Shown here: one piece after another, positions 33,065 through 40,729 of the stretch
How positions within the stretch are numbered: the stretch's first letter is position 1
Layout: each line of letters opens with the position of its first letter
Source: a bacterium
GTDB lineage: Bacteria > Zixibacteria > MSB-5A5 > WJJR01
Assembly: GCA_035559435.1 (NCBI GenBank)
Contig: DATMBC010000077.1
Span: 1 to 51,148 of the forward strand
Direction: 5' to 3'
Length of the DNA stretch: 51,148 nt
The notes under the pieces: model-generated
Told to the model about the DNA's origin: nothing
The model's database searches: none
Seen by the model: the letters and a program-made list of their open reading frames with translations, nothing else
Translations under genes and position numbers: made by a program

Positions 33065-33790
33065 TCACTTCGTCAGAAACAACACCCCGATCACCACCAG
33101 CATCGCCTCGACCGCATACATGAACACCTTTGCATTAATTCGCTTCAGCATCGCGGTGCCGGCATAGGTGCCCACGATCATCAGCGCTCCCATCAGCAGG
33201 CCATAGATCACCGTGGCTCTGGTGACGATGTCGAAGAACGTCCAGGTGGTCACGCCGGTGATGTGCATCAGAAGCGCGCCGATCGCCATGGTACCGACAA
33301 AGGCCTCCTTGCGGATGCCAGTGGCCAGGAAAAACGGCACCGCCATCGGCCCGACCACTCCCAGCATGTTCGAGAAGAACCCGACCATCGCTCCCAACGG
33401 ATAGAAGATCCCCCAGCGGGTGAGCGGCGGACGCTCTTCCTTCTGCGCCAACAGGAAGACAACCGAGGCGATCAGGAAGGCGCCGATCCCTTTGGTGATC
33501 CAGTCGGCCGGCAGCTTGACAAAGACCACCGCCCCCGCCGCCGCACCGGGGATGGCGCCGATGATGTAGCGCGCCGCCAGCGGCCAGACGATGCTTTTCC
33601 AGTGAATCGAAACCCGGGTCAGATTGGAGAAGACCAGCCCGAAGGTCACCAGCGGCACCGCATCACGCGGCCCCACCAACGCAACCACCAACGGCAGATA
33701 GAGTATTCCACCACCGAACCCCGCCACCGCCGAGATCACACCCGCGACAAAAGCGCCCCCCATTAGAAGTGCGAGGTCTATCGGCGTCAT
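33065..33790 (-). CDS. TauE/SafE-family membrane exporter
   Basis: 242 residues from the ATG at 33790 (MTPIDLALLMGG), chosen because the membrane fold begins there. The frame extends upstream through the regulator's promoter region, which is not coding. About seven to eight membrane segments; typical family phrases are FVAGVISAVAGFGGGILYLPL, FSNLTR and MVGFFSNMLGVVGP. The family exports sulfite, sulfoacetate and related anions, and the substrate here is unknown. It is transcribed away from the HTH/DUF2087 regulator gene, so the two may be functionally linked. No strong Shine-Dalgarno is seen. Confidence 0.88.
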   Translation of the reverse strand: MTPIDLALLMGGAFVAGVISAVAGFGGGILYLPLVVALVGPRDAVPLVTFGLVFSNLTRVSIHWKSIVWPLAARYIIGAIPGAAAGAVVFVKLPADWITKGIGAFLIASVVFLLAQKEERPPLTRWGIFYPLGAMVGFFSNMLGVVGPMAVPFFLATGIRKEAFVGTMAIGALLMHITGVTTWTFFDIVTRATVIYGLLMGALMIVGTYAGTAMLKRINAKVFMYAVEAMLVVIGVLFLTK

Positions 33791-33892
33791 AAGGCCGCGA
33801 AGGTAACCACACATCATCCGACGGCACAGCCAAACTGCGTCGAGACTTATCTTATTGTCTTCGAAGGTGTTACTTTCTTCATGGCTGTCTTG

Positions 33893-33922
33893 CTGTATTT
33901 TGTTATACTTTTCTGTATTTTG
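33893..33922 (+). repeat. 10-bp direct repeat at 20-bp pitch in a divergent promoter region
   Basis: CTGTATTTTG occurs at 33893-33902 and again at 33913-33922, exactly 20 bp apart (two helical turns), in an AT-rich patch that stands out from the GC-rich surroundings. It lies 30-59 bp before the HTH/DUF2087 start and about 100 bp before the exporter start on the other strand. This looks like a tandem operator, perhaps bound by the adjacent regulator. Confidence 0.6.
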
Positions 33923-33951
33923 ACGTATATTGGCCGAGGGAGGATGCCAGC

Positions 33952-34425
33952 GTGACCCAGTTGCCAACCAGCGTCAGCGATACCGTCTTCTTCACCTCGG
34001 CCGAGGTGGCCGATAAACTCAAGCTCAATCAGCAGGTGGTGGTCCGCAAACTGCAGACCGGCGAGATCCCCGGCTACAAGATCGGCAAGGATTGGCGCAT
34101 CTCCGATCGGCAGCTGGCTGCCTGGCTTGAGTCCCGCTCCAATCAGAACCGTCTCGACGAACGCGCCAAGGTGGAACGCTCGTTTTTCAAGGATGGCCGT
34201 TTGGTGGAAATCCCCGCCCAGCGCAAGAAGCGTGTCTACGTCCTCGAACGGCTTCTGGCCGAATTTGATCCGGTCAAGGTCTACACCGAGGCGGAAGTCA
34301 ACGAGGTGTTGCGACGGTTCCACGACGATGTCTGCACCCTGCGCCGCGAGTTCATCATGGAAAAGATGATGGTGCGTTCGGGGGGGAAATACCGCCGCGC
34401 GCAATTCTACGCGCGCAAGGCGTGA
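33952..34425 (+). CDS. HTH (excisionase-type) plus DUF2087 transcriptional regulator
   Basis: 157 residues. Residues 11-62 match a MerR/excisionase-like winged helix (FFTSAEVADKLKLNQQVVVRK...GYKIGKDWRISDRQLAAWLE). Residues about 74-150 match DUF2087 (VYTEAEVNEVLRRFHDDVCTLRREF...GGKYRR), a domain often fused to DNA-binding domains. The start is GTG at 33952, with GGGAGGAT upstream; the nearer ATG at 33944 reads into a stop after three codons. It is probably a local regulator of itself and the divergent TauE-like gene through the direct repeats at 33893. It converges with the next minus-strand gene at 7-nt distance. Confidence 0.85.
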   Translation: MTQLPTSVSDTVFFTSAEVADKLKLNQQVVVRKLQTGEIPGYKIGKDWRISDRQLAAWLESRSNQNRLDERAKVERSFFKDGRLVEIPAQRKKRVYVLERLLAEFDPVKVYTEAEVNEVLRRFHDDVCTLRREFIMEKMMVRSGGKYRRAQFYARKA

Positions 34426-36987: not shown

Positions 36988-37390
36988 AGTTCCCTCCAGG
37001 GTCGGACGTTAGCGGAGTGATAGCCATCACCAGGCATCGCGGGTTGGCAAGGACCGCTATCATAGCGTCCCAGCCCGGTCGACAACAGCCCAAAAACGGA
37101 CGCCCCCGTCCGCGAATTCGCTGGAACCGCTTGGATGGCGGCGTGTTGGAGGGTATGTTAGCGGCTCGGCCACGGAGAGCCGGCGCCTGCCTCACAGGCG
37201 CGTCAGCAAGCAACGAGCAGGATGCCGCCACACGCCGATGTGGGATCCCGGACAAGAATCATCACACCAAATGCCGTCGCAAGAGACCGGCGCATTCCGC
37301 CGATAAGATGATCATGATCGCTCCGCCGCTGGGGTGAACCCGGGCGCGGGGGGGACACCGAAGACGCACGCCTTCATGGGGAGACCAACA
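36988..37390. other. Divergent intergenic region between S9 and S8 peptidase genes
   Basis: 403 nt without a supported gene. It holds an odd 13-bp palindrome CGCTAT-C-ATAGCG (37055-37067), a hairpin GCGCCTG-N5-CAGGCGC (37183-37201) with no U-tract, and a 10-bp palindrome GATCATGATC (37310-37319). Promoters for both flanking genes should be here, but no convincing -35/-10 pair stands out. Confidence 0.55.
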
Positions 37391-40300
37391 ATGTTCAATC
37401 GCACGATCGTTCGCTGGACACTGGCACTGGGGGCGCTGGCCGCGCTGTGGCCGGCCGCATCGGCGTGCGCCGGACAGATCGATCCGGGCCTGCAGGCGCG
37501 CATGAACGCCGCCGGCGCCGACGAATTAATCCAGGTCGTCATCCGGCCCGTCGGGACGCTTTCGGGCGCGGCGCTGAAAAAGCAGGTCGCCTCGCAGTAT
37601 GCCACGTTGGCCGAACAACACGCCGCCGCGGTCAACGCCCTGCGCGCCACCGCCGACGCGGTCCAGCCGGCGATCCTGCGCGCGATGAACGCGCCCGAGT
37701 TCGACGGACGCGTCTACGACGCGCAGGGATTCTGGATTGACAACGTCATTACCGCCCGCATGACCGCTTCGGCAATCGCCGAACTGGCGCAACGACCCGA
37801 CATCGAGGAAGTGGTGGAAATGCCGCTTGTTCGGCTCGTCACTCCCGTGCCGGCCGACGCCACCGATGTCACCGACAATCAATCGGTCACCCATGGGTTG
37901 CGGGCGATCAAGGCCGACTCGGTCTGGGCCATGGGTTACACCGGGTCGGGGCGGCTGATCGCGTCGATGGACACCGGCGTCGACGGCGACCACTTTGTGC
38001 TCGCGTCCAAATGGCGCGGCAACAACGGCTACAGTGTGCGTGAAAGCTGGTTCGATCCGGTCTACAACGACCCGAAGCCGCGTGTCTATTCCGGTTCCGG
38101 CCTCACGCATGGGACGCTGGTAATGGGGTTGCTGGTGGGCGTCATCTCGCAGATCAACGACACGATCGGCGTTTGCCCCGATTGTCAGTGGATTTCCGCG
38201 GCGGCCATCGACATCCCCTGCCCGACCAACATCAACATCGGCTGCGGCAACCTCTTCGAGGCGATGCAATGGCTGGCCGACCCCGACGGCAATCCCCTGA
38301 CCACCGATGATGTTCCCGATGCCGTGGCCAATCCCTGGGGCGCCTTCACCAAGGACCCCGGCGATGGCTGCGTGCCCACCGGCATCGGGTGCTCCAACAT
38401 CTTCTGGAACGCCATCGACAACATCGAGGCGGCGGGCCCGGTCATGGTCTTCGCCGCCGGCAACGAGGGATCGTGCGGCGCCTCGACCATCCGCAATCCC
38501 GGAAACCGCAACACCTCATCGACAAACTCGTTCTCCGTCGGCATGGTGGACTCGCGCACCGACATCATCAACCCGCCCGTCGACCCGCTCTCCTCGAAGG
38601 GGCCGTCCGATTGCGACAACTCGACGATCAAGCCGGAGCTGGTTGCCCCGGGCGTCTCGCTGCGCAGCACCACACCCGGCGGCAATTTCTCCAACACCGC
38701 CGCTTATGGAACTTCATTCTCCACGCCGCTGGTCGCCGGCGCGGTCGCGCTGTTGCGTGAATACAATCCCAATGCCACCGCCGAGCAGATCAAGCAGGCG
38801 CTGTTGGCCGGCGCCAAGGATCTCGGACCGGCCGGTCCGGACAATTCCTACGGCAACGGGCTGCTGGACATCGCCGCCGCGTTGCGCGCCTTGCCGGCCA
38901 ACGCGCAACCGAACATCTCGGTGCAGAAGGACTACTACATTCGTCCCGCCGCCGGACAGAGCGCGCAGGTCGTCCTGCGGCTGAAGAATGCCGGCGCCGC
39001 CGCCACCGGCGTCAATGTGACGATCACCAGCAACGATTCGCGCCTGACCATCCAGGATCGCGCCGCCGCCTTCGCCAACATGCCGAATGCCGGCGACACC
39101 GCCGCCAACCACGACGATCCGTTCGATGTGACCGTGTCGCTGGCCGATGTCGTCTCGGGCGAACGTCTGCCCATCACCGTCAACATCACCGCCGCCGGCG
39201 GTTATGCGCGGACCTATCAGGCCGCCATCCAGACCGGACCGGTGCGGGCGCTGGATCTCTACACGCACGACGCCGGCAACGTGCAGATGACCATCTCCTC
39301 GTTCGGCGGCTTCGGTCTGCAGGCCGACAATCTCAATCCGCGGAAGGGCGAAACCGACTACGGCGTTGGATTCCTCTACGGCGGCGATGCGACCCAGTCG
39401 TTGTTTGAGGGCGGATTCCTCGTTGCCACCGGCCCCACCAAAGTCTCCGACGCGGTCCGCAACTCCTCCGGCTCACCGGACATCGACTTCATGGTCGATC
39501 CGGGCGGACGCGTAGCGGTCAGCGAGCCCGGCGAAACATATGCGGAGGAAACCCGTGCCGGGTTCTCCGATGCCTACGCCGAAAACCCGATCGGCGTGTT
39601 CGTCGAGCAGCGCACCTGGGCATCCGACAATCCGGATGAAGACGACTACATCGTGTGCGAGTACACGATCTGGAACCGGTCCGGGCAGACGCTCAACAAC
39701 CTCCGCGCCGGCCTGTATTTTGACTGGGATTTCCCCTTCAGCGGACAGACGGTGGCCACCCGCGACGGCGGCGGCTTCAACGCGCAACTGGGACTGGGAT
39801 GGATGCGCCACCGCGATGAAAACCGTTTCCGCGGCCTGTGTGTCATCAGTCCGACCGGGACATCCTCATACCACTACTTCGACAACCTGACCGAGATATT
39901 CGACTTCGACGGCCTCTCGGAGAACGACAAATGGCTGGCCATGTCGGGTGGATTTGGCCAGACAGTGCCGCCGGCTGAGGGCGATGGCTCGCATCTGATC
40001 GCCGCCGGTCCGTTCACCATTCCCGCCGATTCCGCGGTGCGTGTGGCCTTTGCCGTCATCGGCGCCACCAGCGAGCAGGCGCTTCTGGCCTCCGCTCAGG
40101 CGGCCAAGGATGGCTACAGCGCCGGCACCGTCTCGGTCTCGCCGGTCGTTCTGCAATTCAGCGCGCCGGTCGGCGGGCCCGACCCCAATCCCCAGACGGT
40201 GACGATCACCAACAACACCGACCAGTCCGTGACCTTCGGAGTTTTGGAAGTGCCCGCTTTTGCCATCGTCGATCCCAGCGTCGGCGAAATCGCCGCCGGC

Positions 40301-40729
40301 GAGGATGTCCAGTTGACCGTGCGTCCCAGCGTCGGCGACCGTACCGCCGGCGTCTATCGCGACACACTGGCCATCACCACCTCCGATCCACTGCTGCCCC
40401 TCGTGCGCATCCAGGTTACCCTCAGCGTCGGCAGCGGCGGTGTCAGCGTCAACCCGAATCCCTTCAGCCCGGCGGCCAACGGCTCGGTCACGCTGACCCT
40501 GGCCAAACCGGCCACCGGCAAGACCACCGCGGCCATCTATGATCTGGGCGGGCGCCTCGTTCACGACTTCGGTGCCGTCAGCGCCGGTAACACCGTGCTC
40601 ATCTGGGACGGCAAATCGGAGGACGGTGATGAAGTCGCCGATGGCGTCTACTTCTGCTACGTCGAGGCGGGGGGCGAAGGCGGGTTCAAGCAAACCCTCA
40701 AGATCGCGGTGAAAAAGAAGATCGATTAG
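37391..40729 (+). CDS. Secreted subtilisin-like (S8) protease with C-terminal FlgD-Ig-like domain
   Basis: 1,112 residues from the ATG at 37391 (GGGGAG 7 nt upstream; signal peptide to about residue 27, ACA-G). Residues about 28-150 look like an inhibitor-I9-type propeptide. The S8 domain has Asp194 (SMDTGVDG), His240 (LTHGTLVMG), the oxyanion Asn358 (FAAGNEG) and Ser442 (YGTSFSTPLVAG). Downstream are beta-rich segments, an ASH/choice-of-anchor-like domain (about 930-1020) and a final FlgD-Ig-like domain (NPNPFSPAANGSV, AIYDLGGRLVHDF, DGKSEDGDEVADGVYF), the type used as a sorting or stabilising end in FCB bacteria. Likely an extracellular or surface protease. A strong terminator follows. Confidence 0.94.
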   Translation: MFNRTIVRWTLALGALAALWPAASACAGQIDPGLQARMNAAGADELIQVVIRPVGTLSGAALKKQVASQYATLAEQHAAAVNALRATADAVQPAILRAMNAPEFDGRVYDAQGFWIDNVITARMTASAIAELAQRPDIEEVVEMPLVRLVTPVPADATDVTDNQSVTHGLRAIKADSVWAMGYTGSGRLIASMDTGVDGDHFVLASKWRGNNGYSVRESWFDPVYNDPKPRVYSGSGLTHGTLVMGLLVGVISQINDTIGVCPDCQWISAAAIDIPCPTNINIGCGNLFEAMQWLADPDGNPLTTDDVPDAVANPWGAFTKDPGDGCVPTGIGCSNIFWNAIDNIEAAGPVMVFAAGNEGSCGASTIRNPGNRNTSSTNSFSVGMVDSRTDIINPPVDPLSSKGPSDCDNSTIKPELVAPGVSLRSTTPGGNFSNTAAYGTSFSTPLVAGAVALLREYNPNATAEQIKQALLAGAKDLGPAGPDNSYGNGLLDIAAALRALPANAQPNISVQKDYYIRPAAGQSAQVVLRLKNAGAAATGVNVTITSNDSRLTIQDRAAAFANMPNAGDTAANHDDPFDVTVSLADVVSGERLPITVNITAAGGYARTYQAAIQTGPVRALDLYTHDAGNVQMTISSFGGFGLQADNLNPRKGETDYGVGFLYGGDATQSLFEGGFLVATGPTKVSDAVRNSSGSPDIDFMVDPGGRVAVSEPGETYAEETRAGFSDAYAENPIGVFVEQRTWASDNPDEDDYIVCEYTIWNRSGQTLNNLRAGLYFDWDFPFSGQTVATRDGGGFNAQLGLGWMRHRDENRFRGLCVISPTGTSSYHYFDNLTEIFDFDGLSENDKWLAMSGGFGQTVPPAEGDGSHLIAAGPFTIPADSAVRVAFAVIGATSEQALLASAQAAKDGYSAGTVSVSPVVLQFSAPVGGPDPNPQTVTITNNTDQSVTFGVLEVPAFAIVDPSVGEIAAGEDVQLTVRPSVGDRTAGVYRDTLAITTSDPLLPLVRIQVTLSVGSGGVSVNPNPFSPAANGSVTLTLAKPATGKTTAAIYDLGGRLVHDFGAVSAGNTVLIWDGKSEDGDEVADGVYFCYVEAGGEGGFKQTLKIAVKKKID

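Follow-up and report, generated by a model that had tools for sequence, protein, structure and literature searches.

Within a 51,148-nucleotide stretch of DNA from a bacterium of the Zixibacteria lineage (hereafter the window), the 10-mer CTGTATTTTG occurs twice in the gap between two divergent genes, which raises the question of which protein reads this repeat and which gene it controls. The original prediction had placed the two copies 20 bp apart between an HTH/DUF2087 gene and a TauE gene, and had taken them as sites for one dimeric regulator on a single face of the DNA, controlling an anion-export module. The repeat itself was confirmed: exact copies lie at positions 33893-33902 and 33913-33922, with a start-to-start distance of 20 bp. 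The genes and signals around them are as follows.

33065..33790, minus strand: TauE/SafE-family permease gene (Pfam), divergent neighbour of the regulator gene
33892..33931, minus strand: candidate operator array of four in-register 10-bp units, reading AATATACGTC AAAATACAGA AAAGTATAAC AAAATACAGC on the minus strand (held-out model 14.3; 0 of 1000 shuffles as high)
33893..33902, plus strand: first copy of CTGTATTTTG, one base out of register with unit 4
33901..33909, plus strand: extended -10-like sequence TGTTATACT within the array, a possible regulator promoter (by eye; without a -35 match)
33913..33922, plus strand: second copy of CTGTATTTTG, one base out of register with unit 2
33938..33943, plus strand: Shine-Dalgarno-like GGGAGG ahead of the GTG start (by eye)
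33952..34425, plus strand: regulator gene, 157 aa, with HTH_17 (residues 13-63) and DUF2087 (residues 83-149) (Pfam; structure model of mean pLDDT 87.1)
33988..34140, plus strand: HTH_17/excisionase-family winged HTH (domain matches; closest folds BldC and RdfS)
34198..34398, plus strand: DUF2087 domain with Cys128 (Cys in 52 of 82 homologues)

A consensus scan for a sigma-70 -35/-10 pair in the array region of the window gave none. On the minus strand, the TauE frame could be extended upstream, without a stop, as far as a TTG at 33967 and would then span the whole array; the ATG at 33790 is the likelier start. In the regulator, Pfam at E<=1 recognized HTH_17 (44.1 bits) and DUF2087 (82.6 bits) and nothing else; the HTH also matches TIGR01764, an excisionase family.

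We analyzed the repeat in the window and in its own 3.0-Mb genome. With at most one mismatch, CTGTATTTTG matched four times in the window against 0.82 expected, and four or more matches appeared in 0 of 100 shuffles. A pair of copies with a gap of 8-12 occurred once in the genome and not at all in the reversed control. A third exact copy, solitary, lies at 39713; the window also holds a 1131-aa ORF at 37334-40729, which we take to resemble a secreted protease of the subtilisin type whose C-terminal end is FlgD-like. The pair proved to be part of a larger array, in which RTAY cores start at 33895, 33905, 33915 and 33925, a pitch of exactly 10 bp. Four such cores at this pitch were found at a single place in the genome and nowhere in the reversed control. 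Under a matrix built from the family, four in-register units at 33892-33931 on the minus strand scored 5.0, 4.3, 1.9 and 4.7 nats, and the in-register units flanking them scored negative. The unit reads A-w-A-R-T-A-C/T-n-n-n, on the minus strand in the window. The four-unit score was 15.9, under a matrix whose training set of 79 regions included the window's own, against best scores of 7.0-9.7 in six simulated 3-Mb genomes of window composition. Chance or AT-richness as the source of the array was ruled out by shuffles, simulated genomes and the upstream regions of other genes.

The regulator provided a wide basis for comparison. The window protein was matched in 30 of 58 genomes, its own included, and the 24 near-full-length homologues among these were the set used first. 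A scan of genome contigs gave 59 loci, 34 of them titled Candidatus Zixiibacteriota or Zixibacteria and the remainder including the titles Bdellovibrionales, Alphaproteobacteria, Elusimicrobia and Eisenbacteria; in the host class, the gene was found in 77 of 132 genomes (profile at E<=1e-20), with one copy in each. Homologues with identical domain stretches were merged and matches starting past model position 20 were excluded, and 79 of the 82 homologues had at least 70 bp of upstream sequence free of N, giving a set of 79 regions. An earlier set of 70 regions derived from 73 merged homologues, of which 71 remained after removal of two truncated ones and 70 had enough upstream sequence. Three partial relatives without the HTH_17 part (L179-L181) were excluded; coding sequence, not an array, lies upstream of their match.

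The 10-bp period was recovered across these homologues. Among these 70 regions, RTAY pairs spaced 10, 20 and 30 bp apart numbered 70, 55 and 37, versus 7.9, 7.6 and 6.9 in dinucleotide shuffles, and pairs at 9 and 11 bp were not in excess (2 and 5 versus 7.7 and 8.0); spacings of 5, 15 and 25 bp were likewise enriched. Unsupervised expectation-maximization of a periodic motif on the 79 regions gave 14.7 nats for period 10, compared with 5.0-7.1 for periods 7-9 and 11-13, with the consensus unit AAAATACTTT; period 10 on three shuffled sets reached 4.7-5.0 nats. An array was detected at P<=0.01 in 70 of the 79 regions, with a matrix trained on those same regions and with P-values that are not independent across these related sequences; all nine regions without one fall in one half of the protein tree. 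Among 59 arrays scoring at least 12, 34 had four good units, 16 had five, six had six and three had three. Control upstream regions scoring at least 8 numbered 16 of 471 with the all-trained matrix, or 17 of 471, and all 11 that scored at least 12 with the all-trained matrix proved to be these intergenic arrays seen from the divergent side. These comparisons support the array as a conserved, helically phased candidate operator that goes with the HTH_17-DUF2087 regulator.

A held-out model gave a similar picture. It was trained on nine sequences, six from Bdellovibrionales and one each from MAGs titled Alphaproteobacteria, Elusimicrobia and Eisenbacteria, and again period 10 was best (19.8, versus 7.3-10.4 for periods 8, 9, 11 and 12 and 6.9-7.4 for shuffled sets). 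This model detected arrays in 58 of the 70 other regions at P<=0.01 and in 63 at P<=0.05, and it scored the window array at 14.3, with 0 of 1000 shuffles as high. Divided by the DUF2087 cysteine, held-out arrays at P<=0.01 were present in 41 of 41 homologues with Cys versus 17 of 29 without. The well-conserved DUF2087 residues among the homologues are Tyr111, Glu113, Asn117 and Asp126, with Cys128 in 52 of 82; the codons for Asp126 to Cys128 lie at 34327-34335 of the window.

On a tree of 79 proteins, arrays scoring at least 12 were found in 39 of 40 members of one half and were missing in 19 of 39 members of the other, and Cys128 has been lost in a sub-clade that is often without the array. 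The single exception in the array-rich half is the window's same-genus relative, which scored 8.0 with the all-trained matrix and 11.4 with the held-out model, the latter with 0 of 1000 shuffles as high. Presence and absence of the array require about 10 changes on this tree. Eight of the nine homologues from outside the class form one clade within it; lateral transfer is therefore probable, and the phyla do not count as independent evidence.

To describe specificity genome-wide, we searched 58 genomes with a sequence-only model built from 45 arrays, a short model with strict filters by which weak sites would be missed. In the window's own genome, the one match at E<=1 was the window array (E 0.038). 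The 14 best matches over all 58 genomes (E<0.004) comprised 12 sites upstream of the regulator, one site elsewhere (contig C22 of genome G014) and one at a contig break in genome G021, where the last bases of the contig encode the regulator N-terminus. Weaker matches were scattered, and 43 of the 58 genomes had any at E<=1, about as the E-values predict. Four RTAY cores at 10-bp pitch occurred at 14 sites in the 58 genomes, of which four lie before the regulator (in G000, G004 and G032) and the other 10 equal the number in the reversed control (10). By sequence, the array thus appears nearly private to the regulator gene. Some other occurrences were seen. In three genomes of one family (L196, L198 and L200), a second array-like site lies near position 1500, near genes that by the look of their sequence resemble those of dockerin-repeat secreted proteins. 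A very similar 34-base stretch fitting four RTAY cores is shared by L076 (352-385) and L082 (1501-1534), from genomes G046 and G057; it is not before the regulator and is perhaps coding.

We further examined the regulator protein. Its AlphaFold2 model, based on 25 sequences, had a mean pLDDT of 87.1 and a pTM of 0.54. The top three structural matches of the HTH were two BldC entries, 6ama_P (Z 7.5, rmsd 2.4, 55 aligned) and 6amk_A (Z 7.4, 1.5, 51), and RdfS 8dgl_A (Z 7.1, 2.8, 61), all at Z<8 and middling by the tool's own note; the Pukovnik Xis protein followed (4j2n_C, Z 6.4, 2.1, 52). Foldseek gave no match at E<=0.001 with this model; its first rows were SelB winged helices with poor superposition, followed by BldC and RdfS chains at probability 1.00. 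PDB sequence searches with the regulator returned none at E<=0.1, or, with the single sequence, none at E<=10. The DUF2087 domain aligned with winged-helix chains, MarR-type ones among them, at Z 5.4-6.8. These DUF2087 matches are in line with a proposal, cited in PMC7113386, that DUF2087 binds nucleic acid.

Among the closest known systems is BldC of Streptomyces. As described in PMC5859096, BldC is a lone 68-aa winged HTH with a pleiotropic role, which binds variable numbers of direct repeats head-to-tail, about one helical turn apart and in either orientation, with 9-bp AATTnnnnC units. The regulator likewise has an HTH_17/MerR-like winged HTH, and its arrays likewise vary in repeat number, from three to six units. 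In a profile alignment that is itself weak (E 0.52, ranked below two DivIVA entries), E18, L23, K24, M/L25, R32, I44 and G45 stand opposite Glu16, Phe21, Arg22, Val23, Arg30, Leu43 and Gly44, which in BldC serve the head-tail interface or DNA reading (PMC5859096). Among the 82 homologues, R32 and G45 never vary, I44 is always I, L or V, Glu occupies position 18 in 79, and position 24 carries K or R in 78. By this alignment, seven of nine BldC interface or DNA-contact positions, Arg30 among them, have similar counterparts, unlike Trp31 and His46. The Trp31 position is an invariant Lys33. The His46 position (47) is Asp or Glu in 82 of 82, in a wing alignment made uncertain by a one-residue gap; in BldC, His46 makes a minor-groove contact, and its change to glutamate abolished binding (PMC5859096). 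Since this position is acidic in all 82, the wing must bind differently if the binding mode is that of BldC, and the invariant W48 and R49 beside it are candidate wing contacts.

Other features also separate the two. The regulator bears a DUF2087 domain, unlike BldC, and its 10-bp units have the form A-w-A-R-T-A-C, with period 9 scoring 5.7 versus 14.7 for period 10. Unlike the pleiotropic BldC, almost the only strong site found for the regulator is the one before its own gene. The best reading by analogy is that the regulator would work like BldC and yet not be a member of the BldC family, since the fused domain and the 10-bp unit depart from two of its defining features. RdfS and Xis, recombination directionality factors with a winged HTH of the HTH_17 group, also form head-to-tail oligomers, with about 10 bp of DNA per protomer for RdfS. 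They take part in excision together with a tyrosine recombinase, and RdfS yielded no consensus motif (PMC11963761). The regulator differs from RdfS and Xis (PDB 8dgl and 4j2n) in the strong periodic consensus upstream of its gene. BtmL of the bottromycin cluster is a putative transcription regulator that, like the window regulator, has DUF2087 at its C-terminus, whereas the likeness predicted for its N-terminus is to SmtB-ArsR repressors and not to HTH_17; the available text of PMC7113386 makes no mention of EMSA, gel shift, surface plasmon or "BtmL binds". Among the papers listed by a literature search with the motif strings, all matched only the 10-mer CTGTATTTTG and were unrelated by title, and searches for EamA with a divergent excisionase-family regulator, for excisionase-family autoregulation and for Zixibacteria operators gave nothing.

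In relatives, the array overlaps promoter-like sequence. A TTGACA-like and a TATAAT-like hexamer were paired within 30 of 54 sense arrays scoring at least 12, in a scan that covered spacers of 16-18 bp. Of these pairs, 28 start at unit position 8, 27 have a 16-bp spacer and ten are perfect in both hexamers. In 60-bp arrays simulated from the matrix, such a pair occurred in 12.9%, mostly in the same phase and with the same spacer; thus, the phase of the hexamers follows from the unit itself, and only their frequency exceeds expectation. The array is sense to the regulator in 64 of the 70 regions with P<=0.01 and antisense in the window. Because of this orientation and the absence of a consensus -35/-10 pair, the promoter overlap is weakest in the window. 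We infer repression because the array overlaps promoter-like sequence in relatives.

A shared operator is one alternative: the regulator would use the array to control its divergent transporter, TauE in the window and EamA in relatives, and the two would form an export module. This may coexist with autoregulation, and we regard it as possible though doubtful. The window array sits in the gap between the regulator and TauE genes, with its units oriented towards TauE. In relatives, the divergent gene is most often that of an EamA-type transporter, which adjoins the regulator in 27 of 79 regions (a hand count from tblastn and ORF calling, with some contigs too short to tell), and an MFS gene takes this place in two closely related Bdellovibrionales. 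Pfam over 52 divergent neighbour candidates, the window TauE included, identified EamA in 21, radical SAM in eight, MFS_1 in one and TauE only in the window. However, held-out arrays at P<=0.01 were as common beside neighbours of kinds other than EamA and KamA-like (29 of 32) as beside EamA (23 of 27), with 6 of 11 beside KamA-like genes; among Cys-bearing homologues, they were present in 14 of 14 beside EamA, 4 of 4 beside KamA-like genes and 23 of 23 beside others. Three relatives from the window's family have EamA 1.6-4.2 kb upstream, with the array still beside the regulator, and the loci fetched for the own genome's EamA homologues, on other contigs, contain no array. TauE homologues were detected in 7 of 58 genomes, own included, and none of the six outside the window has the array within 300 bp upstream (best score 2.9 versus 15.9 in the window); two genomes (G001 and G004) carry the regulator as well as TauE, either on separate contigs or some 40 kb from each other. 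A TauE-specific operator was ruled out, as the array is absent at these six homologues and TauE stands next to the regulator only in the window among the regions examined. The proposed anion-export module is thus left without support: the refuting condition named in the original prediction, loss of the repeat in relatives having both genes, speaks against the pairing with TauE and not against the regulator, and what stands is a phased candidate operator conserved with the DUF2087 protein's gene. Control of TauE by the array in this species is possible, without comparative support. As to the neighbours themselves, EamA/DMT-type genes are found, for example, at L050, L131, L144, L146 and L025, and a gene that we call KamA-like by the look of its sequence (radical SAM in Pfam) follows EamA or replaces it elsewhere. 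The EamA and KamA-like neighbours may hint at amino-acid export or metabolism.

The mode of binding and the identity of the binder can also be read differently. The regulator could act as symmetric MerR-type dimers on palindromic RTAY cores, activating by twisting a long-spacer promoter. RTAY is indeed palindromic, the 5-, 15- and 25-bp spacings are enriched, the MerR-type winged HTH folds of MtaN (1r8d) and HiNmlR (5d90) match the HTH at Z 5.6, and the His46 and Trp31 positions of BldC are not conserved. We nevertheless judge this unlikely: the unit has a direction, being A-rich on its left and mostly placed sense to the regulator (64 of 70); the promoter-like pairs mostly have a 16-bp spacer (16-18 bp tried), against 19-20 bp in MerR promoters (PMC5859096); the Leu43 position is I, L or V in 82 of 82, against a charged or polar residue in the classical MerR proteins named in PMC5859096; and HTH_17 and DUF2087 are the only domains that Pfam recognized at E<=1 in the 157-aa protein. 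Assignment of the array to the regulator rests on co-occurrence, and another DNA-binding protein might occupy it, but this seems quite improbable given that the array is unique in its own genome and adjacent to the regulator gene, that its loss is concentrated in homologues lacking the DUF2087 cysteine, and that it accompanies the gene in MAGs of the four other titles named above. Least credible of all is that a mobile element uses the array as its attachment or excision (Xis/RDF) site. The TIGR01764 match and the RdfS and Pukovnik Xis fold matches would suit such a site, whereas no integrase or recombinase appeared among the 21 Pfam families in the 52 divergent neighbour candidates, and the gene is single-copy in every class genome having it.

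The array is probably an autoregulatory operator of the adjacent HTH_17-DUF2087 gene. In this reading, four 10-bp direct repeats over the regulator promoter region form the predicted operator, and the winged HTH domains would bind it cooperatively, one protomer per 10-bp unit and probably head-to-tail on one face of the helix, by analogy with BldC and Xis-type proteins. The helical phasing seen in the original prediction is thereby retained, and its two sites for one dimeric regulator at 20-bp pitch give way to four sites at 10 bp, with head-to-tail oligomers of HTH_17 proteins as the closest parallel. The bound regulator would exclude RNA polymerase and so set its own level by negative autoregulation, repression being the probable outcome, and DUF2087 is likely to serve for input or control.

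More tentatively, the HTH_17-DUF2087 proteins may represent an undescribed family of self-limiting nucleoprotein-filament regulators, in which a cooperative head-to-tail filament on four to six 10-bp units would lock its own promoter and DUF2087, with its conserved Tyr-Glu-Asn-Asp-Cys residues, would act as a sensor, perhaps of redox state or a ligand, by which the filament is opened or closed. With this short, strongly conserved candidate operator, a role for DUF2087, so far a domain of unknown function, can be put directly to the test. The array further suggests that the head-to-tail mode described for BldC and Xis-type proteins on tandem repeats of one helical turn is shared by a group of regulators, present in several phyla, that carry a fused control domain.
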